Below are positions 295 to 11,199 of a stretch of DNA of 11,199 bases, in pieces. The stretch comes from Deltaproteobacteria bacterium (GTDB lineage Bacteria > Myxococcota_A > JAADFL01), in contig JAADFL010000218.1 of assembly GCA_013152945.1 (NCBI GenBank), forward strand, positions 1 to 11,199, written 5' to 3'. The notes under the pieces were generated by a model that worked only from the letters and a program-made list of their open reading frames with translations, made no database searches and was not told the origin of the DNA. The translations under genes were made by a program, and so were the position numbers. Within the stretch, counting starts at the first letter, position 1; each line of letters starts with the position of its first letter.

Positions 295-1356
295 TCACCC
301 AAACATCTTTTCAAACAATGCCCTGGACCTCAATTCACGCCCGGCGAAATACAAGGCCTTTTCCTCCAGTTCTGCTCTCTTATCCGGAGATTCCATCAAT
401 TCCAGAATTGCCTCCCTCAATGCAACGAAATCACCTTCGGCCACGAGTTTCAGCCCTCCCGATGCAGCATACGCCTCTGTAAAAGCGGTTCTTGTTGCAA
501 CAATCGTCTTTGCAAGTGACATGGACATGCTAAGAGAAACCAGGCCGCAGTTCATGTCATTTAACGGCAAAACGACTATTTGAGCCCTTTCGAGCAGATC
601 CCTGTATTCGAAATACCTTAATCTACCAAGGTATTTCATATTGTCCGGCCTGCCCGTTTTTGTCTCTCGATTCGCCTGGAAGGCAAGGCCGGCATCACCA
701 CCGGCAACAATCACGTCCCCGGGAAAACCCCGGCAGGCTGTTTCCAGGCATTCAAAGTCCCTGCCTGTCTCGCCCGGGGCAACTAATATTCCTGTTTCTT
801 CCTTTTTATTACGGCCGGGCGAAAAAAACTCCCCGCTTACAGGCTGTAAAATGCAGGTGACCATGTCCTTTCGAAAGCCGAGAGCCTCGTATCTTTCGAG
901 AAAGGACGGACCGTACGGGGTGACTATCTCAACCCTGCCAAGCAGGCCCATCACCCTGTCCATGCCGAATACTTCAAAAAGTGGGCCCAGGCCACGAAGA
1001 AAGTGTGCATCGAAGACAATTATCCGGATCCTTCCTCCGGCAGTATCGATGAATTTTAACAAGTATCCTGAAAGACCGAAGAACAAGGCGACATCGTAAC
1101 CCCGGGCATTTAAAGCAGCCTGATTGGTGAGTTTTCCAAGCAACGGGCCATCAGCACTGCTCAGGACGATATTTTTTCCACACGAGCCATCTATCCCGGG
1201 TCTTGGTGAAAGTTCCACATCGAGCCGATCGGACTTTTCCACCACCACCTGGTCCAGGCCAAAGCCCCTGGCCTTGCAGTACCTGAAAAATTCGTACCTG
1301 AACAAGTACGCATTAACGAAATCATCCAGTTCACTGCAAAAAAAGAACAGCCTCAC
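295..1356 (-). CDS. GT-B fold glycosyltransferase-like protein (family 4/group 1 type)
   Basis: A 353-residue protein, likely a cytosolic sugar transferase. The length and two-lobed layout fit GT-B enzymes: residues 1-175 form a variable N-terminal lobe, and 185-345 a C-terminal nucleotide-sugar lobe with the strand-turn segments VAPGE (192-196), DVIVAGG (214-220), KYLGRL (241-246), the helix EYRDLLERAQIVVLPL (250-265) and IVATRT (285-290). The GDFVALREAIL segment (308-318) matches the usual end of the family. The acidic pair of the classical EX7E motif is absent: the region reads NCGLVSLSMSMSLAKTIVA, with Ser where the second Glu is expected. The start is GTG at 1356, supported by GAGGTG (1364-1369) seven bases upstream. 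That site overlaps the TGA stop of the preceding gene, so the two are translationally coupled. No membrane segment is visible. Sugar and acceptor are unknown. Family call fairly secure, activity less so. Confidence 0.75.
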   Translation of the reverse strand: MRLFFFCSELDDFVNAYLFRYEFFRYCKARGFGLDQVVVEKSDRLDVELSPRPGIDGSCGKNIVLSSADGPLLGKLTNQAALNARGYDVALFFGLSGYLLKFIDTAGGRIRIIVFDAHFLRGLGPLFEVFGMDRVMGLLGRVEIVTPYGPSFLERYEALGFRKDMVTCILQPVSGEFFSPGRNKKEETGILVAPGETGRDFECLETACRGFPGDVIVAGGDAGLAFQANRETKTGRPDNMKYLGRLRYFEYRDLLERAQIVVLPLNDMNCGLVSLSMSMSLAKTIVATRTAFTEAYAASGGLKLVAEGDFVALREAILELMESPDKRAELEEKALYFAGRELRSRALFEKMFG

Positions 1357-1362
1357 TTGAAT

Positions 1363-3981
1363 TCACCTCGGCTCCAGCCCTGCTGTTCCGAAAACAGAAA
1401 GGTATTGCCCGAACAATCCGGGACACACGGATGCAAACCCGCAACTCCCAGCCAAGGGACACACCTTCCTTTTCTTGAACTCCGTCCCCCGTGCCTCTCC
1501 GATTTCAGCGAGTTTCAATACCGGTTTCTCGACTTCCCGCACAAGCCTTGTCGTCTCCATTTCAAGAGCCCTGAACAGTACACATGTCGGGACCTGTCCG
1601 AACAACTTTCCGACCATCTCCCGGCCGATGTCCAAAGGGGCTGTACGTATTACTTTTTCCAGATCGCTGAAAGGAAAAGCAATCTCCATATAAGTCTCGA
1701 TATCATGTGTTGAAGGCTCCGCAACAACCAGACTGTCGAGCCTGCCTGGAATTCTCGTAATGCAGGCATTTACCGTATCCGCCAAACGGGAAACATTGTC
1801 CCGCACAATCACACTGGACAAGAATATTTCCACCATGCCGAGTTCCTGCATGTTTTCCAGCCCCTTCAGGGTTTCATCGAATGCTCCCTTTTGACCCGCC
1901 ACCTTGTCGTGAACCTCTTTGTCAGGGCCCAACACCGTTACGTTCACCCTGGATACGATGGATTTCGAAAGGGCCATGGCTGCAATCGGATCCGCAAGCG
2001 GCCTTGCATGAGTCCATACCGCAATGTCGGAAAATCCCATGTCTGCAGCATGTGAAAGTACGGAAGGCCAGTTCGGATGGTCCAGTATCTCGTATGCTAC
2101 AATATCGAGGTTTTCGAGCCCCTGTTTTCTTATCACCCCGAGTGTGGCAATGATTTTTTCCAGGGCATCGGTCTGTAATGCGCGTCCTGCTTCCCGATTT
2201 ACGATCATGGTGGTACAAAAGGAGCAGGAATTCCTGCATGGATTCTTTATCACCAGCCTGGCGCGGCCATCTTCCATGATGCTGTAGTCACAAAGCCCGG
2301 AATTCGGCTGCGGTTCCTCTCCCGATAGCACCGGCGTCAATGCGCCCAGACCGAATGCCCTGACATAGTTAATGTGCAAACCCGGGCACGATTCCTCTTC
2401 CGGGCAACTTGAACACCTGAAAGATTTTTCACGGTACAGGCGCCCGATGTAATGCTCGACCACGCGGTCCAAGTCCAGACAAGCCTTTGAATCCCGCCCG
2501 TTTATAACAATGGATGCCAAGTCAATCTCTGTGCGGACTTTGTCATCGCTTCCGCCGAGACAAAAAGGAGCCCCTCTTACTCCGGTCAGGTTTTCAATTG
2601 CCAATCCAGACATATCCATGTCGATATCCATATCGAGAACCTGTCCGACCTCGGCCCTGTATTCAATAAACGGCCTGACATTGCCGGGCCAGGTTCCCCA
2701 CTTCGGCAGGGATTCGATAACCTTCCTGTTCAACTCGAGCATGAGTTCTATTCGCCCGTGCGCGGCGGACTTGAATTCTTCGAGTGCCTCCAGGTCATGA
2801 AATAATAAACATTGTTCTCTCACACCCGATTCTTGAAGCGCTTCATAAAAATTGCGGACCGGCTCCTTGCCCTGCTTTCCAGGCAAGTCAAGCTCAACAC
2901 GATTCGGTTTTTCATCCAGTCTTGAAAAGAAAGAAACCAGGTCCAAAGGATCGGAGGCCTGTATTCGCATACTCCCCGTTCCTTTCAGTGCACCGGCTCT
3001 TTCAGCGGATTGTCCCGGCCCAAGCTCATCAAGGTCTACCAGCACCAGGTCTGCAGGTGAGCCATGAATGACCGACCATGCCTGCTCGATGTGTTCACAA
3101 AGGCCCTGCATGAAGCAGTACCTGCACCGGCCGTCCCTGCACGAAAGCGGATTTCCAACAGATGCCCATTCTTCCAGTTCCGCACGCCTGCCCCTTACCT
3201 CGTCCCAGATTTTGTGCGGGTCCTGGACAAGGTGCTCGATCCCCTCCAGCCATGGAGCGGGAAACCTGTTGGTCCACAGGTACACGCCCGGATTCATGGA
3301 TTGCGACAATGCCTGCCTTACCGACGATACAGCACCCCTTGGATCCCCGGGTTCAAAGAGAATCCCGGGATCGTTTCCCCTTCCAAACGGCATTACTTTC
3401 AGGATATCGAACTCGTGCACACCGATTGCCTGCATCTTTTCAAGAATTTTTCCAAGATACATCACATTCCTGCGGTTGACGACCACGTCCACACTGACGT
3501 GACATGCGCCCTGCTCCAGCAGGTTGACAATTCCGGCCAGGGATTGTTCGAAAGCTCCTTTCACGCCTACCAGTTCATCGTGCAAGCTGGAATCATGGCC
3601 GTGTATGGATATTGTTGCTTCATCCAGCCCGGCCCTGATCGCCTTGCTCGCAAAACCCGGATAGGCAAACATCCGGCCGTTGGATATCACCTGAATCCTC
3701 TGGTAGCCAAGCTCCCTTCCAAGCGCCGTGAAATCCAGGAAACCCGGATGAATCGTAGGTTCACCACCGGAAAGAATGAGCCTTGTAAATCCCTGCGCCC
3801 TGCCCTCTTTGATCCGGCGCTCGATTTCACTCGATGTCCTGTGTGTCCTTTCCTTTCTGCCCCCGTCCAGGCAAAATACACAACGATTGTTACACGCGTA
3901 CGTCAGCCTCACCCATAGGCGCTTTTCCTCGGCCACTAGGCTCCTTTCCCTAAGCTCGTCTTGCCTTGTAACCATGTTCAC
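1363..3981 (-). CDS. large multi-module radical SAM protein with two CxxxCxxC motifs
   Basis: An 872-residue putative iron-sulfur enzyme. Module 1 (about 20-300) has C30-C34-C37 in CNNRCVFC, the GGE motif (72-74), SNGRM and a SIHGHD segment, then a cysteine group at 281, 286, 289 and 295. Module 2 (about 345-550) lacks CxxxCxxC but keeps an auxiliary-cluster tail: APFC (C474) and C523, C526, C532 in a CxxCxxxxxCPGLHxxYVxxFG pattern. Module 3 (about 575-872) has C582-C586-C589 in CRNSCSFC. Its GGE is replaced by AYE (629-631), and it ends with C800 and C841, C847, C853 in another CPGLxxxYxxxFG tail. Known radical SAM enzymes hold a [4Fe-4S] cluster and cleave SAM reductively; tail cysteines of this kind bind auxiliary clusters. 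GTG at 3981 is chosen because AAAGGA lies eight bases upstream; ATG at 3975 is the alternative. The start overlaps the upstream radical SAM gene. No known enzyme of this architecture is recognised, and the substrate is unknown. Confidence 0.85.
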   Translation of the reverse strand: MNMVTRQDELRERSLVAEEKRLWVRLTYACNNRCVFCLDGGRKERTHRTSSEIERRIKEGRAQGFTRLILSGGEPTIHPGFLDFTALGRELGYQRIQVISNGRMFAYPGFASKAIRAGLDEATISIHGHDSSLHDELVGVKGAFEQSLAGIVNLLEQGACHVSVDVVVNRRNVMYLGKILEKMQAIGVHEFDILKVMPFGRGNDPGILFEPGDPRGAVSSVRQALSQSMNPGVYLWTNRFPAPWLEGIEHLVQDPHKIWDEVRGRRAELEEWASVGNPLSCRDGRCRYCFMQGLCEHIEQAWSVIHGSPADLVLVDLDELGPGQSAERAGALKGTGSMRIQASDPLDLVSFFSRLDEKPNRVELDLPGKQGKEPVRNFYEALQESGVREQCLLFHDLEALEEFKSAAHGRIELMLELNRKVIESLPKWGTWPGNVRPFIEYRAEVGQVLDMDIDMDMSGLAIENLTGVRGAPFCLGGSDDKVRTEIDLASIVINGRDSKACLDLDRVVEHYIGRLYREKSFRCSSCPEEESCPGLHINYVRAFGLGALTPVLSGEEPQPNSGLCDYSIMEDGRARLVIKNPCRNSCSFCTTMIVNREAGRALQTDALEKIIATLGVIRKQGLENLDIVAYEILDHPNWPSVLSHAADMGFSDIAVWTHARPLADPIAAMALSKSIVSRVNVTVLGPDKEVHDKVAGQKGAFDETLKGLENMQELGMVEIFLSSVIVRDNVSRLADTVNACITRIPGRLDSLVVAEPSTHDIETYMEIAFPFSDLEKVIRTAPLDIGREMVGKLFGQVPTCVLFRALEMETTRLVREVEKPVLKLAEIGEARGTEFKKRKVCPLAGSCGFASVCPGLFGQYLSVFGTAGLEPR

Positions 3982-4882
3982 CGGGATCGTCCTTTCTTGG
4001 AACCAATTCGTCTGCGCCATATCCTTCCACGTATTCCCGCCAGGGCCCTTCGCAGATTCCCATCCACAAGCAATCCTTGCAGGCAGGGCCATGAACCTTG
4101 CCTTCGGTAAGCCTGTACTGGGTATAATCTTCCAAGACATTGTCGGCATCGAAAATCTTTGTCCTTGGAATGTAGAGCTCTGCAGCGCAATCCTCGTAGC
4201 CGGGGAGAAAACAATAAGGCACGGCCTCTGTCATTACACTCACGTTTGCAGCAAGCCCCTTTTCTATGGCCTCTGTTAAATATGGCTCGACAAGGGTTAG
4301 CCTGGGCACAATGGAATAGAAATTATCTCCTGCAGCACCGGCAGGATGGACGAAAGCAAGCTGGTATTGGTCTACTCCGAGATCTATGAAAAGCGAGGCC
4401 AAGTCCGGCAAGTGCCTGTAGTTGGACCTTACCACGACCGTATTGGTCAATACCTTTTGGCCCAGGTCGACGAGATTCTCGATTCCCTTGACGGTTTGGG
4501 AAAACGAACCCCTTGACCTTGTGAGGTATTCGTGAATCTCCGCGAGCGGGCCATGCAGGGCCGGTGAAAACTCGTTCGCACCTGCTGCGATGAGATCTTC
4601 ACAAAAGGCCCGGTATGCCAGCATCCTGCCGTTGGTCTGCACTTGTATTCGCCTGAATCCAAGACTCGATGCAAACCGCACCAGTTCAACTGCATCCTTT
4701 CTTATGGTGAATTCCCCACCGGTGAAAACAATTGAATCAGCATCCTTGCGTGCATCCTCCAGGAGGGCCTTGACCTCTGGAGTCGGCTTGTCCGGATATC
4801 TCTTGCGCTTGTCTCCCTGTACACAGAACCTGCACCTGTTGTTGCAGGAAAACCCAACCTTTACATCGACTCTTTCAGACAA
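3950..4882 (-). CDS. radical SAM protein with C-terminal auxiliary-cluster (twitch/SPASM-like) tail
   Basis: A 310-residue radical SAM enzyme. C13, C17 and C20 in FSCNNRCRFC bind the SAM cluster. GGE at 55-57 contacts the SAM amino group in this superfamily. VQTNGRM (81-87) and the SPALHGP segment (106-112) follow. The tail has VPYC (C224) and C268, C271, C277, followed by GPWREYVEGYG, which fits a partial SPASM or twitch domain with an auxiliary [4Fe-4S] cluster. The start is TTG at 4882, supported by AAGGA (4891-4895) eight bases upstream; no ATG alternative lies ahead of the cluster motif. It is followed by an overlapping larger homologue and preceded by ridA after 72 bases, so it is likely in one operon. 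Enzymes of this shape often act on peptides, but no precursor gene is visible. The exact reaction cannot be named. Confidence 0.88.
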   Translation of the reverse strand: MSERVDVKVGFSCNNRCRFCVQGDKRKRYPDKPTPEVKALLEDARKDADSIVFTGGEFTIRKDAVELVRFASSLGFRRIQVQTNGRMLAYRAFCEDLIAAGANEFSPALHGPLAEIHEYLTRSRGSFSQTVKGIENLVDLGQKVLTNTVVVRSNYRHLPDLASLFIDLGVDQYQLAFVHPAGAAGDNFYSIVPRLTLVEPYLTEAIEKGLAANVSVMTEAVPYCFLPGYEDCAAELYIPRTKIFDADNVLEDYTQYRLTEGKVHGPACKDCLWMGICEGPWREYVEGYGADELVPRKDDPGEHGYKARRA

Positions 4883-4954: not shown

Positions 4955-5341
4955 TCATCCTATGGCAATACACTCTATCTCCACGCCTGCGCCCATCGGC
5001 AACGCAGCAACCTGCACAGTAGCCCTTGCAGGAAAGGGCTCTTCGAAAAAGCCTGAATAAACCTGGTTCACATCCCTGAAAAAAGCCAAGTCGGAGAGAA
5101 ATATGGTTGTCTTCACCACGTTGTGCATGCCGAGCCCGGCCTTTTCCAGTATGGCGCGAATGTTTTCCAGCGACCTTGCAGCCTGTTCAACTGGTGAGTC
5201 CCCGGCCAACTCGCCTGTCCGCGGGTCCACCGGGAGCTGGCCGGAAATGAAAAACAACCTTCCCGGACCTGCCTCCACTCCCTGGGAATAGGGCCCTATG
5301 GCATCCGGAGCCGCCTTTGTTACTATTGCCTTCTTTGTCAT
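4955..5341 (-). CDS. ridA: RidA family (YjgF/UK114) protein, likely enamine/imine deaminase
   Basis: A 128-residue protein of the usual RidA length. Archetypal RidA is a cytosolic trimer that hydrolyses reactive enamine/imine intermediates released by PLP enzymes. Signature parts are present: AIGPYSQ (14-20), FISGQLPVDP (31-40), the NVVKTTIFLSDL stretch (74-85), FPARATVQVAALP (103-115) and EIECIAIG at the C-terminus. Arg106 in ARATV is the expected substrate-carboxylate-binding arginine, and Tyr18 and Glu122 are in the expected places, so the active subgroup is likely. ATG at 5341 is chosen over longer forms because AGGAGG (5349-5354) lies seven bases upstream. It stands between a secreted glycosidase-like gene and the radical SAM pair. 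Such proteins are common and may be housekeeping, so a link to the radical SAM chemistry is only inference. Confidence 0.93.
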   Translation of the reverse strand: MTKKAIVTKAAPDAIGPYSQGVEAGPGRLFFISGQLPVDPRTGELAGDSPVEQAARSLENIRAILEKAGLGMHNVVKTTIFLSDLAFFRDVNQVYSGFFEEPFPARATVQVAALPMGAGVEIECIAIG

Positions 5342-5348
5342 GCCCGCT

Positions 5349-5354
5349 CCTCCT
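5349..5354 (-). promoter_or_regulatory. strong ribosome binding site of ridA
   Basis: AGGAGG on the minus strand, seven bases before the ATG at 5341. It decides the 128-residue start against the ten-residue-longer in-frame form and is the best Shine-Dalgarno match in the window. Confidence 0.8.
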
Positions 5355-5371
5355 CTGTTTGAGCCGACCAA

Positions 5372-5408: not shown

Positions 5409-8400
5409 TCAAAAGGAAATCTTTCCAAAATATTTCCGGCAGCCGAAGCCAAGAACCATGAACAACCAGATTATTCCGGGACCCGGCCCAAGGGAATTAT
5501 TTACCGAGCACCCACATCCACCAGTACTTGAATTCGAGCCGTTGTTATTATCCGTGTCGGTGTCGGTATCCGTGTCAATATCGGTGTCTGTGTCTGAGTC
5601 AGTATCCGTGTCGGTATCGGTATCCGTGTCGGTATCCGTGTCGGTGTCGGTATCCGTGTCGATATCCGTGTCAATATCCGTGTCAATATCCATGTCGGTA
5701 TCTGTGTCGATATCCGTGTCGATATCCGTGTCGATATCCGTGTCGATATCCGTGTCCGCGTCTGTGTCCGTGTCTGTATCCGTGTCGGCGTCACTACCAG
5801 CCGATTCCAGTATTTCCTGGAGCAGGTCTCCGACCTCCAGGCGATAGGCCTCGAGTATTGACGGAGAGGTCGTGTAATCGGTGAGGTCTCGAACCAACCT
5901 GTCCGGTATTTCCAGCAGGCTCCCGGCTTTGGCTGCCAGGTCCGGCCTCTTCCCCCTGTTCTCAAGATCTTTCCTTGCATGATCGAGGAGCCAGAGGTAC
6001 TCGTAGTCCTCGATTCCCTCGCGCAACAGCTCGAAACGCAGGGAAGGAACAGGCCCCCGGACCCTGGTTTGGCCGTCGGCCCACTGCCTCGGAGGATAGA
6101 TCAGCCTGCCGTCGCCGTTGCCCCAGGTTCCTGTCATACCTTGCTGTTTGAAGTAACTCTGTGGGTCTTGCCATGGGTCCTGGCGATTCGGCTCCGGAAA
6201 CACCTGGGTGTTGGTCCAATAGTTTGTCTGCCAATACAGAGAGCCTTGCACGCCGTACTTCCAAGCCATCCAGAAACGGATCCTGTGTTCTATACCCGGA
6301 TGGTCTATAAAGTTGTTGGGATACGGGCTCTTGGGGCCGGTACAGACATACCACCACACCTCATCTCCCATGGACTGCCTTTCGTGCGCCCAGTCCGGCG
6401 AGTACATATGCAGCACAGGCGACCAAATATCCACGTGACCCAGGAGTTCGGGCTCGGCCTGCTCGGTCAAGAGACGCGCCAGCCATGGAGCCGCCTTTTT
6501 TATCAGGTCCATTCCCTGGACAACGAAGTCATAATCCCGGGGATTGGGCTCGTCGAACCAGTATGCGTATGCAAGGTTCGACCAGCCTTTTGTTTCCATG
6601 TGGCCGGCTATCGTATCCATGACCCTGGAGAACAGCTTTTCGTACTCGGGCGTACCCCATTCGAGGCCCAGCAGTCGGCCGATCCTGTGCTCCTGGATGT
6701 CACCCCAGGCGAATCCGGGCAAGGGCAGCCTGAACGAGTCGAATCCGAGTTCGTCAAAGGCGAATGCCGCGGCCTTGTCGAAATCCGTGAAGTCGACGGC
6801 GACCCGGGCGTCTTGAGGCAGGGTTTGGAAGTCGCCGTTGGCCACGAGGTTTTCCGGACTTCCCCGTTGTACCAGGGTGACATCATCGAACCACGTTGTT
6901 CCGGTGAGTTCGCCCGACTGGGTCCATTTCCTGGCAAACAGGGTTATCTTCACCCCGTCCGCGTTTGGTGCGAAGCCGTCGGGTGACAGCACCTCGTGTT
7001 CCTGCTTCCACGTGCCGTCTCCCTGCCCTACCATGTCGATGTTTCGGCCGGATATCCATTCGCCGCTCGAGTCGTACTGGTTCACGGCTACCAGGTAGTC
7101 ATGCGAACCGTCTGTCTTGGCCCTGAAGGACAGCTCGTAGGCGGAACCAGGATCTATTCGTATCAACATCGATGTTCTCACACCGACCGATGCCGTGTCG
7201 TCGTCGTCCCGCACCTCGAGGACCATGTTTCCGGGCGAATCGTGGTCTTCTACTATCTTGCCGTCCATCCAGTTGTAGTCGGGGAATGTTAGATCGTACC
7301 AGTCGTCTCCTATCGGGTCGTAGGGCGAAATCCTGTGCGCCGCGAATTCCTTCAAGTACAATTCAAACGTCCGGCGGCGCAAGTCCGGGTCGTTGTGCAG
7401 GTTGTGATACAGGTCGATCATGCCGAGTGAAAGGCCGTATGCAGTCTTGATGTGGTGTTCTTTCGGTACCACGAAATTCCAGACCGAGAGCCTTACGGGA
7501 ATTTGCACTGTTCCTGATGCCAGGTCCAGCTCGATCGTCCCCTCGTACGCTCCAGGCGCGGTATCGGCCGGAACATACACCGTGAACCACAAAGGCTGCT
7601 GCTTGCCGGCCTCCAAGTCGAGCGGTGGTTCGAAAAGCGGAAGAGGATCCGGGACCAAACCGTCGAAGGATCCCCAGTCCGTGGGTTCCGTGATGTCAAG
7701 GTACGCGACCCGCCTGACGATTACTTGTTCGGCCGGAATAGTGGAGCCGGATGTTCCTGTGAGATCCGAGACATCGACGTTGGTCAAGGTATCGTCGTTC
7801 CGGGGCCACAGCACGATCTGAAAGGGCTCGTACTCGTTGCCGGCCGAGTGAATTTCTATGGAGTCCGTATCCTCCAGGCCCGAGGGATCGATATCCGGCC
7901 GCACCTTGTATTCGACCGGCGCCTGCCACACCCTCACCGGACCTTGTTTCGATAACCAAGAGCCTAACGCGCGGTCCTGCACCTCGACTTGCTCGAATAC
8001 CACGTCGTCGAACCAGGCCCTGCCGGTCAGCTCGCCTTTCTCTGTCCAGGGAACAGGCCTCAAGTTTATCGAAATGGCGGCGGCCCTGGAATGGAAGTTC
8101 CGAAGCACGATGTCGAAGTCCTCCCATCCGGTTCCAGCCTCGAAGGTGAAGTCCATGTTGTAACCCGGTATCCACGAACCCGATGAATCGTACTGGTTCA
8201 AGCTCAACAGCACTTTCTGCTGTTCTGTTTCTCCCTTGACCCATACGCTGAACCTGTAAGGCTTCTCCCTGTCTATTGTTATCGTCCGGATGGTGAAGGC
8301 CACGATGCTCCGGCTGTCGCTCTGATCTTCCACAAGCATGCACCTGGAGCCGGAATGGGGCTGGTCGGAAACCACGTCCCCCCCTGCCCAACCCTGACCG

Positions 8401-8525
8401 TTGTTCTCGAACCCGGGATCCGGTGCGAGGTTCCTGCCCAAGGCATCAATCGGCATGATAATTAGGAATATTGCAACCAGTGTCTCATACAATAAGGCCA
8501 TGCGGATTGATGTATAACAAACCAT
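5409..8525 (-). CDS. secreted GH123/DUF4091-type glycoside hydrolase-like protein with two CBM-like modules, Asp-Xaa linker and MYXO-CTERM-like tail
   Basis: A 1038-residue exported protein. Layout: signal peptide (1-30, hydrophobic core LVAIFLIIMPIDALG); jelly-roll carbohydrate-binding-like module A (31-182); GH123-type N-terminal beta-sandwich (about 195-355); a barrel beginning at HIKTAYG (about 358); a second CBM-like module B (about 415-565) homologous to A (shared NQYDSSG, GELTG and WFDDV); then the rest of the barrel (about 574-860). The barrel includes YWFDEP with D658-E659, SLYWQTNYW and LRFELLREGIEDYEYL. GH123 enzymes are retaining beta-N-acetylgalactosaminidases that use an adjacent Asp-Glu pair, which fits; the real substrate is unknown. 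Residues 912-992 are Asp-Xaa dipeptides. The tail has C1004 and C1006 in GGCGC, a hydrophobic stretch and CRKYFGK, like a MYXO-CTERM signal for surface anchoring. ATG at 8525 is preferred, with GGGAGG 12 bases upstream; ATG at 8501 is possible but lacks a clear ribosome site. Confidence 0.85.
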   Translation of the reverse strand: MVCYTSIRMALLYETLVAIFLIIMPIDALGRNLAPDPGFENNGQGWAGGDVVSDQPHSGSRCMLVEDQSDSRSIVAFTIRTITIDREKPYRFSVWVKGETEQQKVLLSLNQYDSSGSWIPGYNMDFTFEAGTGWEDFDIVLRNFHSRAAAISINLRPVPWTEKGELTGRAWFDDVVFEQVEVQDRALGSWLSKQGPVRVWQAPVEYKVRPDIDPSGLEDTDSIEIHSAGNEYEPFQIVLWPRNDDTLTNVDVSDLTGTSGSTIPAEQVIVRRVAYLDITEPTDWGSFDGLVPDPLPLFEPPLDLEAGKQQPLWFTVYVPADTAPGAYEGTIELDLASGTVQIPVRLSVWNFVVPKEHHIKTAYGLSLGMIDLYHNLHNDPDLRRRTFELYLKEFAAHRISPYDPIGDDWYDLTFPDYNWMDGKIVEDHDSPGNMVLEVRDDDDTASVGVRTSMLIRIDPGSAYELSFRAKTDGSHDYLVAVNQYDSSGEWISGRNIDMVGQGDGTWKQEHEVLSPDGFAPNADGVKITLFARKWTQSGELTGTTWFDDVTLVQRGSPENLVANGDFQTLPQDARVAVDFTDFDKAAAFAFDELGFDSFRLPLPGFAWGDIQEHRIGRLLGLEWGTPEYEKLFSRVMDTIAGHMETKGWSNLAYAYWFDEPNPRDYDFVVQGMDLIKKAAPWLARLLTEQAEPELLGHVDIWSPVLHMYSPDWAHERQSMGDEVWWYVCTGPKSPYPNNFIDHPGIEHRIRFWMAWKYGVQGSLYWQTNYWTNTQVFPEPNRQDPWQDPQSYFKQQGMTGTWGNGDGRLIYPPRQWADGQTRVRGPVPSLRFELLREGIEDYEYLWLLDHARKDLENRGKRPDLAAKAGSLLEIPDRLVRDLTDYTTSPSILEAYRLEVGDLLQEILESAGSDADTDTDTDTDADTDIDTDIDTDIDTDIDTDTDMDIDTDIDTDIDTDTDTDTDTDTDTDTDTDTDSDTDTDIDTDTDTDTDNNNGSNSSTGGCGCSVNNSLGPGPGIIWLFMVLGFGCRKYFGKISF
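5550..5792 (-). repeat. tandem 6/12-base repeat encoding an (Asp-Thr/Ile)n linker
   Basis: The 243 bases encode 81 residues alternating Asp with Thr, and less often Ile, Ala, Ser or Met. The base period is 6, and in 5645-5760 a 12-base unit GACACGGATATC dominates, giving Asp-Thr-Asp-Ile. All copies are in frame within the hydrolase gene, between the catalytic part and the sorting-signal-like tail. The likely role is a stiff, acidic, possibly calcium-binding or glycosylated spacer that holds the enzyme away from the surface. The low complexity leaves several frames open here, which creates false reading frames on both strands. Confidence 0.9.
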
Positions 8526-8538
8526 CACCCTGCAAGAC

Positions 8539-8555
8539 CTCCCAGGAAAAGGGAG
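8539..8555 (-). promoter_or_regulatory. small hairpin over the hydrolase ribosome binding site
   Basis: On the minus strand CTCCC and GGGAG pair around a seven-base loop (TTTTCCT). The 3' arm is the GGGAGG ribosome binding site of the hydrolase gene (start at 8525), so pairing could hide it. No U-run follows, so it is not an intrinsic terminator. Five pairs are weak and may be chance. Confidence 0.25.
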
Positions 8556-8568
8556 AGTAACACCCTTG

Positions 8569-11199
8569 TTACTTCCTGACACATGCAAAGGTAAAACTCG
8601 ATGACGCTGGTGCGCCGGTGCAGGTTACAGGAGTCGACGGGCTGTCCACAAATCCGCAGACACAATGATCTTTACCACATGTTGAAACAGACCAATAACC
8701 AACAGGGTCGAGGCTACTGGCGGCCCTTATCATTTTGAAAGCAGGATCAACGTATATGTTGCGCGGATGCAATTTATCGCAATCGTTATGGCGCTGGGAT
8801 GTGCCCAGATCTTGATAATCTTTGTTCGAAGGAACGACCCAGCCAAATCCAATATTCTTACATTGCAACTTGGTATCTGCGAAAAGTATCCGGTCTCTAT
8901 TACAAGAATCGAAAATCCATCTAAATCCCGTCTTGTAATCACGGATACATGAAAGCCAACCACTGCCGCTGACATAGACGCATTTAGAAATCTCACTCCA
9001 CCGGCCCCTGCAGGCACCTGAAACACACAGGCTCCCGTACGTGGAAGAGTTGTGGTCATCACAGTCGGCACCCTCGTTTGTGGCGGTATGCGAGCACCCG
9101 CTTGCAGCCGAGCACACATCGGTTGTGCAAATACTGTTATCATCGCAAAGAGCGTTGTTAGGGGTGTTGACACAGCTATTGGTGGATGCATTGCACGAAT
9201 CCACAGTGCAGCCGACACCGTCATCGCATCCCGCCTGGATAGTGCCCGATACACAGGTCGAGCACTGGCCCTGGGGATGGCCGCCGTCCGGCACGCACTG
9301 TCCCTCTCCTCCGACTTCCACGTAACATTCAGAGGCGCCTGCCTGTGTGTGTGAGCACTCTCCGTTGCTGGGATTGCAGTTGTCTACGCTGCACGAGAGT
9401 CCATCGTCACACTTGGCCTCAATGCCGACGCAAAACCCGCCCTGACACTCGCTCTTGCTGCTGCACGGGTCGCCGTCGTCACAAACAGTATGGTCATCGG
9501 CATTGTCGTAACTACAAGAGTGATTACCGTTATTTTCAATACAACTGCCGACCTTGCACGCCTCTGTTGGAACACAGTCAGCATCGACTGCACAAGTTCC
9601 CTCCACGCATACACCCGTGTCTTCGTTGCATACCCTGCCGGTTCCACAGTTACTGTCCTGCTCGCAGTTCTTGCACCTGCCGCCTGCACACCAGTTCGAG
9701 GCGCATTCGGCATTTATCGAACATCCCTGCTGGCAAAGGCCGTTGTCACAAATCGTGCCCGCCGGGTAACCTGCGGTTATACACTCGGGGTCATTGGCGC
9801 ATGCAACGCAAGTGTGCGTGAGCGAATCACATATCTGACCTGCCTGTGTGCCTTCCATGACACCGCAATGCTCCCTGCCGAGGCAGTTTCCGGTAAGGCA
9901 GGCATGGGTGGCGGTGTCGCAAATCCTGCCGGCGCCGCACTCATTGAGCGCGTAACATGCAATACAATTGTGGTCCTTGCACAACCTCGTGCTCGGGCAA
10001 TCAGTATCCTGATCCGCATCGGTGCACTCGCCGGTTACACAGTCACCGTTATCGCAGACCCTGCCCTGGCCGCAGTCCGACTTGTCCGTGCAGCTCATGC
10101 ACGTATTCTTCGAAGGATCGCATAAGTTGGTGCTGCAGAGGTCGTCCTGGGTCGAAACAGTACATTCGCCCTCGTAACAACGCTTGGTGTCTCCAAGGTC
10201 GCATACCTTGCCTTCTCCGCACTCCTCGTGGGTCCTGCAATTTCGACAGATATTCAACTGGCCGTCACATACCTGGCCCTGGGTGCAGGGCTTTTCATCG
10301 TTGCATTCAGCCTTGATACATGATCCGCCTATACAGAGATAGTCTGTATTATAGCACTCTGCATTACCCGTGCAGCCGGTGCACCTGTGATCCTGTCCGC
10401 ATACCTTACCGGAAGCCTGGCAATCGACCGCCTTATCGCAACCAAGCGCACACTTGCCGGACTTGCAGATACCGTTTTCCACGGACATGGCGACCCTGCA
10501 CTCGATGTCCTCGGTACAATCGGCGCAGTAATAGTCGACTCCGCATATCCTGTCCTTGGATTCGCCGCAAAGACCACCGGGAGGCGAACAATCGCCCTCG
10601 GTACAACGACCGGTCAAAGTCACACAATAATACCCCTTGTCCACATTCTCCAGGTCCAGGCATTCCTGGTCTTTTTGGCATCCCCGGCAACGAAAATCTT
10701 CTCCGCATATGGGCTTGTCATCATTGCAATCCACGCTGTCCTCACAATCACCTTCCACGCAAAGACCTTGTATGCACGTGGTTCTTGCCGGATAATTACC
10801 TTTTTCCTGATCCAGACAGTCATCCGTTTTTTCGCAAGGTACGCACCGGCTGTCGGCCGAGCACACTTTGTGCGTTTTCCAACAATCCTCGCCTCCCGTG
10901 CATTGATCAGGACCGCAAAGTCCATCGTCCCAGCACTTGTAACCAACATCATTGTACTGGACGCCGCATGCTTCGTCGTCGTCCCCCGGCACACACTTGC
11001 GGCATGCCCCTGAATCACAAAGACCGCCGTCGCATTCGCCGGCGGAAATACAAGCACCGCATACGCCGTCTGCACACGCCTCACCCGGCCTGCACTCGGA
11101 AGCTGTACGACAGGGCCCGCATTCTCCTGTAACAGTCATGCAGGCCTCTCCGCTTGGACAATCCTCGGAAGAATTACAATACGTGTCAGTGTCCGTGTC
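8569..11199 (-). CDS. giant Cys-rich secreted protein with C-terminal DUF1566-like domain (5' end outside window)
   Basis: A partial gene: the frame is open to the right edge, so the start and any signal peptide are missing and 876 residues are visible. It opens with DTDTDT and then YCNSSEDCPSGEAC. The methionine 21 codons in is internal, not a start. Residues 7 to about 566 are short disulfide-type repeats of the form CxxDxxCGxGxVCDxxxxxCxxGxC in varied spacing. About 567-732 is a second type, CDDGxxCTxDxCxxxxxxCxHT. The last 144 residues (about 8572-9003) differ: GFGWVVPSNKDYQDLG, NIYVDPAFKMI, GYWSVSTC and the end FTFACVRK fit the DUF1566/Lcl C-terminal fold. Such proteins are common on deltaproteobacterial and myxobacterial cell surfaces; a role in adhesion or binding is inference. 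The hydrolase gene starts 43 bases downstream, so the two are likely co-transcribed. High confidence in coding, low in role. Confidence 0.88.
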   Translation of the reverse strand, partial: DTDTDTYCNSSEDCPSGEACMTVTGECGPCRTASECRPGEACADGVCGACISAGECDGGLCDSGACRKCVPGDDDEACGVQYNDVGYKCWDDGLCGPDQCTGGEDCWKTHKVCSADSRCVPCEKTDDCLDQEKGNYPARTTCIQGLCVEGDCEDSVDCNDDKPICGEDFRCRGCQKDQECLDLENVDKGYYCVTLTGRCTEGDCSPPGGLCGESKDRICGVDYYCADCTEDIECRVAMSVENGICKSGKCALGCDKAVDCQASGKVCGQDHRCTGCTGNAECYNTDYLCIGGSCIKAECNDEKPCTQGQVCDGQLNICRNCRTHEECGEGKVCDLGDTKRCYEGECTVSTQDDLCSTNLCDPSKNTCMSCTDKSDCGQGRVCDNGDCVTGECTDADQDTDCPSTRLCKDHNCIACYALNECGAGRICDTATHACLTGNCLGREHCGVMEGTQAGQICDSLTHTCVACANDPECITAGYPAGTICDNGLCQQGCSINAECASNWCAGGRCKNCEQDSNCGTGRVCNEDTGVCVEGTCAVDADCVPTEACKVGSCIENNGNHSCSYDNADDHTVCDDGDPCSSKSECQGGFCVGIEAKCDDGLSCSVDNCNPSNGECSHTQAGASECYVEVGGEGQCVPDGGHPQGQCSTCVSGTIQAGCDDGVGCTVDSCNASTNSCVNTPNNALCDDNSICTTDVCSAASGCSHTATNEGADCDDHNSSTYGSLCVSGACRGRWSEISKCVYVSGSGWLSCIRDYKTGFRWIFDSCNRDRILFADTKLQCKNIGFGWVVPSNKDYQDLGTSQRHNDCDKLHPRNIYVDPAFKMIRAASSLDPVGYWSVSTCGKDHCVCGFVDSPSTPVTCTGAPASSSFTFACVRK
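11182..11199 (-). repeat. start of an Asp-Thr repeat at the right window edge
   Basis: The last 18 bases read GACACGGACACTGACACG on the minus strand, three in-frame Asp-Thr pairs directly before the first Cys module. They use the same GACACG hexamer as the linker in the downstream hydrolase gene. The full length cannot be seen because the window ends here. Confidence 0.55.

Follow-up and report, generated by a model that had tools for sequence, protein, structure and literature searches.

P0001, an 872-residue protein, is best read as a core protein, so far unrecognised, of the His-Xaa-Ser (Hxs) system of HxsA4 type, in which module 1 would be catalytic and the degenerate middle module (module 2) a former radical SAM barrel that has kept an auxiliary cluster, most likely as an electron relay for module 1; we give this reading a probability of just under 60%. 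The gene lies in the window, i.e. the whole 11,199-nucleotide stretch of DNA analysed, where stops interrupt the plus strand of 1363-3981 and the P0001 frame runs on the minus strand (Table 1). Pfam recognised two Radical_SAM stretches in the protein, and its top NCBIfam match was HxsC4 (NF038332; 1.4e-50), at 172.4 bits against a curated cut-off of 500 bits. In relatives, the P0002-type gene (gene B) is conserved next to the two-module gene, and none of the other loci examined gave a match to P0003. At 5409-8588 and 8569-11139, the minus strand of the window also encodes a protein resembling glycoside hydrolase 123, in which a long Asp-Thr repeat stands close to the C-terminus, and a repeat protein rich in Cys; further Asp-Thr repeat tracts occur on the contig outside the window.

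Table 1. Positions of P0001, its modules and predicted cluster sites, and the adjoining genes in the window
Feature	Position	Strand	Basis or remark
P0001 (872 aa), composed of modules 1 and 3 with the degenerate middle module between them	1363..3981	minus	GTG start at 3981, stop 1363-1365
Radical SAM barrel of module 1 with its own four-Cys auxiliary tail, residues 1-310	3052..3981	minus	Pfam PF04055, 1.7e-30
CxxxCxxC of module 1, C30/C34/C37, predicted SAM-cleaving cluster site	3871..3894	minus	67/67 homologues
Auxiliary site 1, C281/C286/C289/C295	3097..3141	minus	67/67 homologues
Middle module (residues 312-473) of six beta-alpha units lacking CxxxCxxC and a stretch running into P-x-C	2563..3048	minus	AlphaFold2
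Auxiliary site 2 tail, residues 474-544: C474, C523, C526, C532, G534, R541, G544	2350..2562	minus	Conservation and HxsC4-like profile match
C523-x2-C526-x5-C532 of auxiliary site 2	2386..2415	minus	67/67 homologues
Module 3 (residues 557-872), a divergent radical SAM module whose fusion is peculiar to the window genome	1366..2313	minus	Search of 377 genomes and module tree
CxxxCxxC of module 3, C582/C586/C589	2215..2238	minus	Translation
AYE (residues 629-631) replacing the SAM-binding GGE in module 3	2089..2097	minus	By eye, against SGGEP of module 1
Module 3 tail Cys, C841/C847/C853	1423..1461	minus	C800 (P-x-C) upstream at 1582-1584
P0002 (gene B), 310-aa HxsC4-like radical SAM protein	3950..4882	minus	Upstream; overlaps the P0001 start
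P0003, GT4-like glycosyltransferase	295..1356	minus	Directly downstream of P0001
RidA-family protein	4955..5371	minus	Upstream of P0002; PF01042, 1.7e-39

The translation of P0001 carries its two CxxxCxxC motifs exactly where the preliminary description had placed them, and the segment between them indeed has no such motif and contains APFC, whose cysteine is C474, together with C523/C526/C532. The same description held the tails of the middle module and of module 3 to be of one kind, and the presence and positions of the cysteines agree with this; their spacing differs, being C-x2-C-x5-C in the middle tail (with PGLHINYVRAFG directly after C523/C526/C532) versus C-x5-C-x5-C in module 3 (with PGLFGQYLSVFG directly after C841/C847/C853). 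The four-Cys tail of module 1, C281/C286/C289/C295, had been overlooked. Module 1 itself has the CxxxCxxC, the GGE motif (SGGEP) and the barrel fold of the radical SAM superfamily, its AlphaFold2 model reaching Z scores of 19-21 to BlsE, SkfB and viperin in a fold search; C30/C34/C37 would hold the SAM-cleaving cluster and the four tail cysteines a first auxiliary cluster.

Modules 1 and 2 together are an old unit. A strong module 1 homologue was detected in 21 of 57 genomes of the phylum, including the window genome (G000, 4.84 Mb, the sole member of its family among the genomes searched), and module 2 follows it in the loci read; by a 21-sequence profile, the two-module gene was found in 122 of 377 genomes, about a third. 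A single-sequence scan of the genome contigs returned one distant radical SAM protein among the matches listed. In the loci read, the stand-alone protein of modules 1 and 2 usually measures 450-630 aa, and of the 88 examined members of the family, some of which came from overlapping loci, the window frame alone has a second CxxxCxxC. The idea that three modules form one characteristic, conserved architecture was thus rejected, the first two being a widespread stand-alone gene and the third private to the window genome. In relatives, separate radical SAM genes flank the two-module gene, with A and/or B upstream and D downstream. One genome holds three copies of the two-module gene (G376:C178, G376:C214), and in one family gene D is directly followed by a conserved membrane protein of ~430 aa, prepilin-peptidase-like by eye (L039:10927-12222, L042:7185-8486, L043:10726-12192, L046:5079-6383), a tested member of which matched no Pfam or NCBIfam family.

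The two-module gene was closely associated with the His-Xaa-Ser system across genomes. In operons of several relatives, HxsD (TIGR03976) and an HxsD-like protein (NF038315), both over cut-off, and HxsB (TIGR03978, 515 bits) are encoded together with it. Among the 57 genomes, HxsB over cut-off as well as HxsD and HxsD-like proteins (E ≤ 0.001) were present in exactly the same 21 as the two-module gene. The pattern held among the 377 genomes, of which 117 had both the two-module and the HxsD-like gene, 247 neither and 13 were discordant, i.e. the HxsD-like gene was found in 117 of 122 genomes with the two-module gene and missing from 247 of 255 without it; a Fisher test of this co-occurrence was extreme but ignores shared ancestry. 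Of the pairs compared, 59 have both genes on one contig, and 36 have them no more than 6 kb apart. Near HxsD, several loci also encode small conserved proteins with a twin-arginine-like signal peptide (L050:5520-6050, L048:5628-6167, L049:13543-14256, L031:2930-3595, L032:14728-15336), a possible extra partner whose tested member had no family match.

A candidate substrate accompanies these genes. The DNA pattern (His-Gly/Ala-Ser)n matched 20 of the 21 genomes with the two-module gene, plus one other, where the hit encodes His-Gly-Arg; the two-module gene thus occurs alongside HxsB, HxsD and a repeat precursor in the same genomes. The (Ser-His-Gly)n proteins read have the common start HCSHGSHG (HCSHASHG in one), and the complete ones end in SHGSW or SHGQW; they were assigned to HxsA4 (NF038313), the window genome's own precursor at 55.1 bits, just over the cut-off of 55, and four others at 90-114 bits. 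A His-rich precursor beside every copy of the gene was looked for and dismissed, since none was found next to many loci, even though one is present somewhere in 20 of the 21 genomes. In the window genome, HxsD, HxsD-like, HxsB and HxsA4, in this order, lie on another contig (C27) than P0001, so its linkage to the system rests on co-occurrence rather than neighbourhood. The next gene there fuses an HxsC-like radical SAM protein to a class I methyltransferase (L066:10286-12124), and an FHA-like protein, recognised by eye, follows. Hxs systems received their names from sequence. The literature searched yielded no paper testing Hxs chemistry and mentions of the systems only, in PMC9062424 and a genome paper. 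The Hxs system appears to modify Ser-His-Gly repeat proteins, and we infer that P0001 acts on precursors ending in (Ser-His-Gly)n.

Comparison with the known families places P0001 beside HxsC4 (NF038332) and HxsC (TIGR03977), the best family matches of both P0001 and P0002, while the 335-position HxsC4 model fits one barrel, the two-module protein has two and P0001 three. Likewise, the two-module protein shares genome-wide co-occurrence, and in several relatives an operon, with the HxsA4/HxsB/HxsD system, yet it reaches no NCBIfam cut-off.

The best conserved part of the middle module is its tail. In all 67 non-redundant homologues, C523/C526/C532, G534, R541 and G544 are invariant, just as C30/C34/C37 and C281/C286/C289/C295 are, and 66 have C474; the conservation of the middle-tail cysteines, on which the preliminary description depended, is thereby established. 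By profile-profile comparison, the middle tail matched the tail of the HxsC4-like P0002 family (P 92%, E 8e-7) and that of B genes having lost CxxxCxxC (P 85%), and 41 of 62 middle segments matched NF038332, the window segment covering the last 49 positions of HxsC4. Such B genes neighbour the two-module gene at six loci of the f4 family, where they lie upstream as free-standing pseudo-radical SAM genes (L034:6475-7428, L035:7580-8485, L037:8308-9261, L038:6461-7414, L041:9714-10682, L045:6630-7607) and retain P-x-C and CxxC-x5-C-x-G. They resemble the haloarchaeal pseudo-radical-SAM family TIGR04347 in the loss of the motif, the gene B versions also keeping the tail cysteines; these are separate polypeptides, whereas the degenerate module of P0001 is joined in cis to an intact module.

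In contrast to its tail, the barrel of the middle module is variable and in some lineages nearly absent, the distance from C295 to C523 ranging from 48 to 281 residues across the 67 homologues. In a module 1 tree, the root of which is uncertain, six short forms of the f9 family grouped as one clade (98/86), which nested with a long form (100/97), whereas the short form L135 stood apart; the simplest reading is that the barrel was reduced twice while C523/C526/C532 were kept. Site 2 most likely serves module 1, because lineages nearly devoid of the barrel keep its cysteine cluster site.

AlphaFold2 modelling of residues 1-556 with a 66-sequence alignment (pLDDT 90.2, pTM 0.90) showed the middle module as a partial TIM barrel without a cluster loop, followed by the tail, and the fold was retained when the segment was modelled alone (pLDDT 86.6, pTM 0.83). 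The six strands (312-316, 337-341, 361-365, 389-394, 411-416 and 435-438) are each followed by a helix, so the segment took the form of a partial beta-alpha barrel, and no unrelated fold was seen. The first strand-to-strand step takes 25 residues versus 46 in module 1, where the cluster loop sits; the SAM-cluster loop is therefore absent from the middle module, and all SAM chemistry was probably lost there, with an auxiliary cluster at C474/C523/C526/C532 putatively kept. The ancestry of the barrel is less clear. Profile searches with the segment alone succeeded for the tail through its HxsC4-like match and failed for the barrel, which had no sequence match to radical SAM proteins in profile searches, Pfam, NCBIfam or PDB sequences. 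Structural comparison gave viperin (Z 8.2; 3.9 Å over 181 residues) and AbmM (Z about 7.6) among the best natural matches, on par with a designed (de novo) TIM barrel (Z 8.5) and other TIM barrels (Z ~7), and Foldseek with the middle module alone returned nothing under 1e-3, ordinary TIM barrels taking the top ranks. Thus, of the proposal that this unit is a radical SAM module that lost SAM cleavage and kept its auxiliary site, the partial barrel without CxxxCxxC and the conserved four-Cys tail hold, while radical SAM ancestry is unproven by profile or fold; such an origin is suggested, and the context makes it likely.

As no sequence profile ties the middle barrel to radical SAM proteins, it could be another TIM-like insert, and P0001 would then be a single radical SAM enzyme whose two clusters (C281-C295 and C474-C532) form a SPASM-like pair, a barrel that was never radical SAM having been inserted between them. 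We consider this rather unlikely, though it draws on several observations besides the Foldseek ranking: only 48 (L135) and 69 (L131) residues separate the two cysteine clusters in the shortest forms, and alignments of BlsE (263 residues) and CteB (260) to the whole model reach residue 542, while most viperin-type ones end near 270, which hints at SPASM-like packing in the model. Against it, six beta-alpha units followed by P-x-C are the order of the one-barrel HxsC4-like proteins, in which P-x-C and CxxCx5C-x-G come after the barrel, and the short forms look derived. Moreover, tandem radical SAM proteins in which both CxxxCxxC are intact exist in the window genome and its relatives (L053, L047, L040). 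The one in the window genome (L053:298-2040, G000:C14) has 580 aa and the motifs at residues 30 and 312. Whether the barrel is a degenerate radical SAM module or an insert, site 2 is placed in the service of module 1.

The SPASM domain is marked by the seven-Cys motif CX9-15GX4C-gap-CX2CX5CX3C-gap-C. Like the SPASM maturases PapB, CteB, SkfB and PqqE, P0001 has a radical SAM barrel followed by auxiliary cluster sites, CX2CX5C motifs and a RiPP-type candidate substrate; unlike them, with their one compact SPASM domain, it has two CX2CX5C groups with a degenerate barrel between. The seven-Cys motif was absent from the translation and the 67 homologues, each of these two tails combining a single Cys with a CX2CX5C that is not followed by CX3C, and the eight conserved cysteines are compatible with two auxiliary [4Fe-4S] clusters. 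PapB without its AC2 cluster (C408/C411/C417/C440, also CX2CX5C plus one Cys) performs a single turnover only and AC2 has been linked to electron transfer, although the roles of auxiliary clusters are described as largely enigmatic (PMC10470005). We infer that site 2 holds a second, fully Cys-ligated auxiliary cluster that would serve module 1 as an electron relay and not as a substrate-binding site.

An electron relay is the likelier role than a substrate platform because site 2 has four conserved cysteines, which leave no iron site open to a substrate. That the middle module serves mainly as a platform on which the repeat protein, HxsD-type proteins or partner radical SAM proteins bind or dock, with its Fe-S or metal site being structural, seems improbable to us. 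The barrel does vary in sequence and in length as a recognition surface might, and several small HxsD-type partners are present; however, the metal site and R541/G544, not a surface, are the best-conserved part, and some lineages dispense with the barrel.

Module 3 is set apart from this conserved unit. Among the 377 genomes of the phylum, it had no match above 71.4 bits outside the window genome. Its end branch is the longest in the module tree (2.69), and it carries, besides AYE for GGE, THA in place of the TNG motif (by eye, in the translation). Its SAM-binding motifs are eroded as judged from sequence, and it is a private, fast-evolving addition, perhaps with impaired SAM binding. The idea that it is the usual downstream partner D, copied and fused, was rejected because module 3 is placed outside the D clade in the module tree and a separate D orthologue lies on G000:C10 (354 bits, 54% identity). 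That P0001 as a whole is a decaying or chimeric version, fused through loss of a stop, the fusion serving no current function, would suit the eroded motifs, the long branch and the lack of orthologues, but is very improbable given the open 872-codon frame, the fully conserved residues of modules 1 and 2, the CxxxCxxC and four tail-type cysteines retained in module 3, and the intact separate D-type protein, which makes module 3 an addition and not a broken copy of D.

More broadly, P0001 may exemplify a catalytically dead radical SAM module retained in cis throughout the phylum solely for an auxiliary cluster that serves its live neighbour, in an unrecognised core enzyme of a (Ser-His-Gly)n-modifying pathway with multiple radical SAM proteins, the barrel having been trimmed down to the cluster in some lineages; this wider claim is tentative, and we rate it at slightly less than even odds. 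The analysis adds a protein that accompanies HxsA4-type systems in roughly one third of the genomes sampled from the phylum, and the apparent removal of most of the barrel in nature, at least twice, with retention of the cluster site offers a clear test of what the second auxiliary cluster is for.
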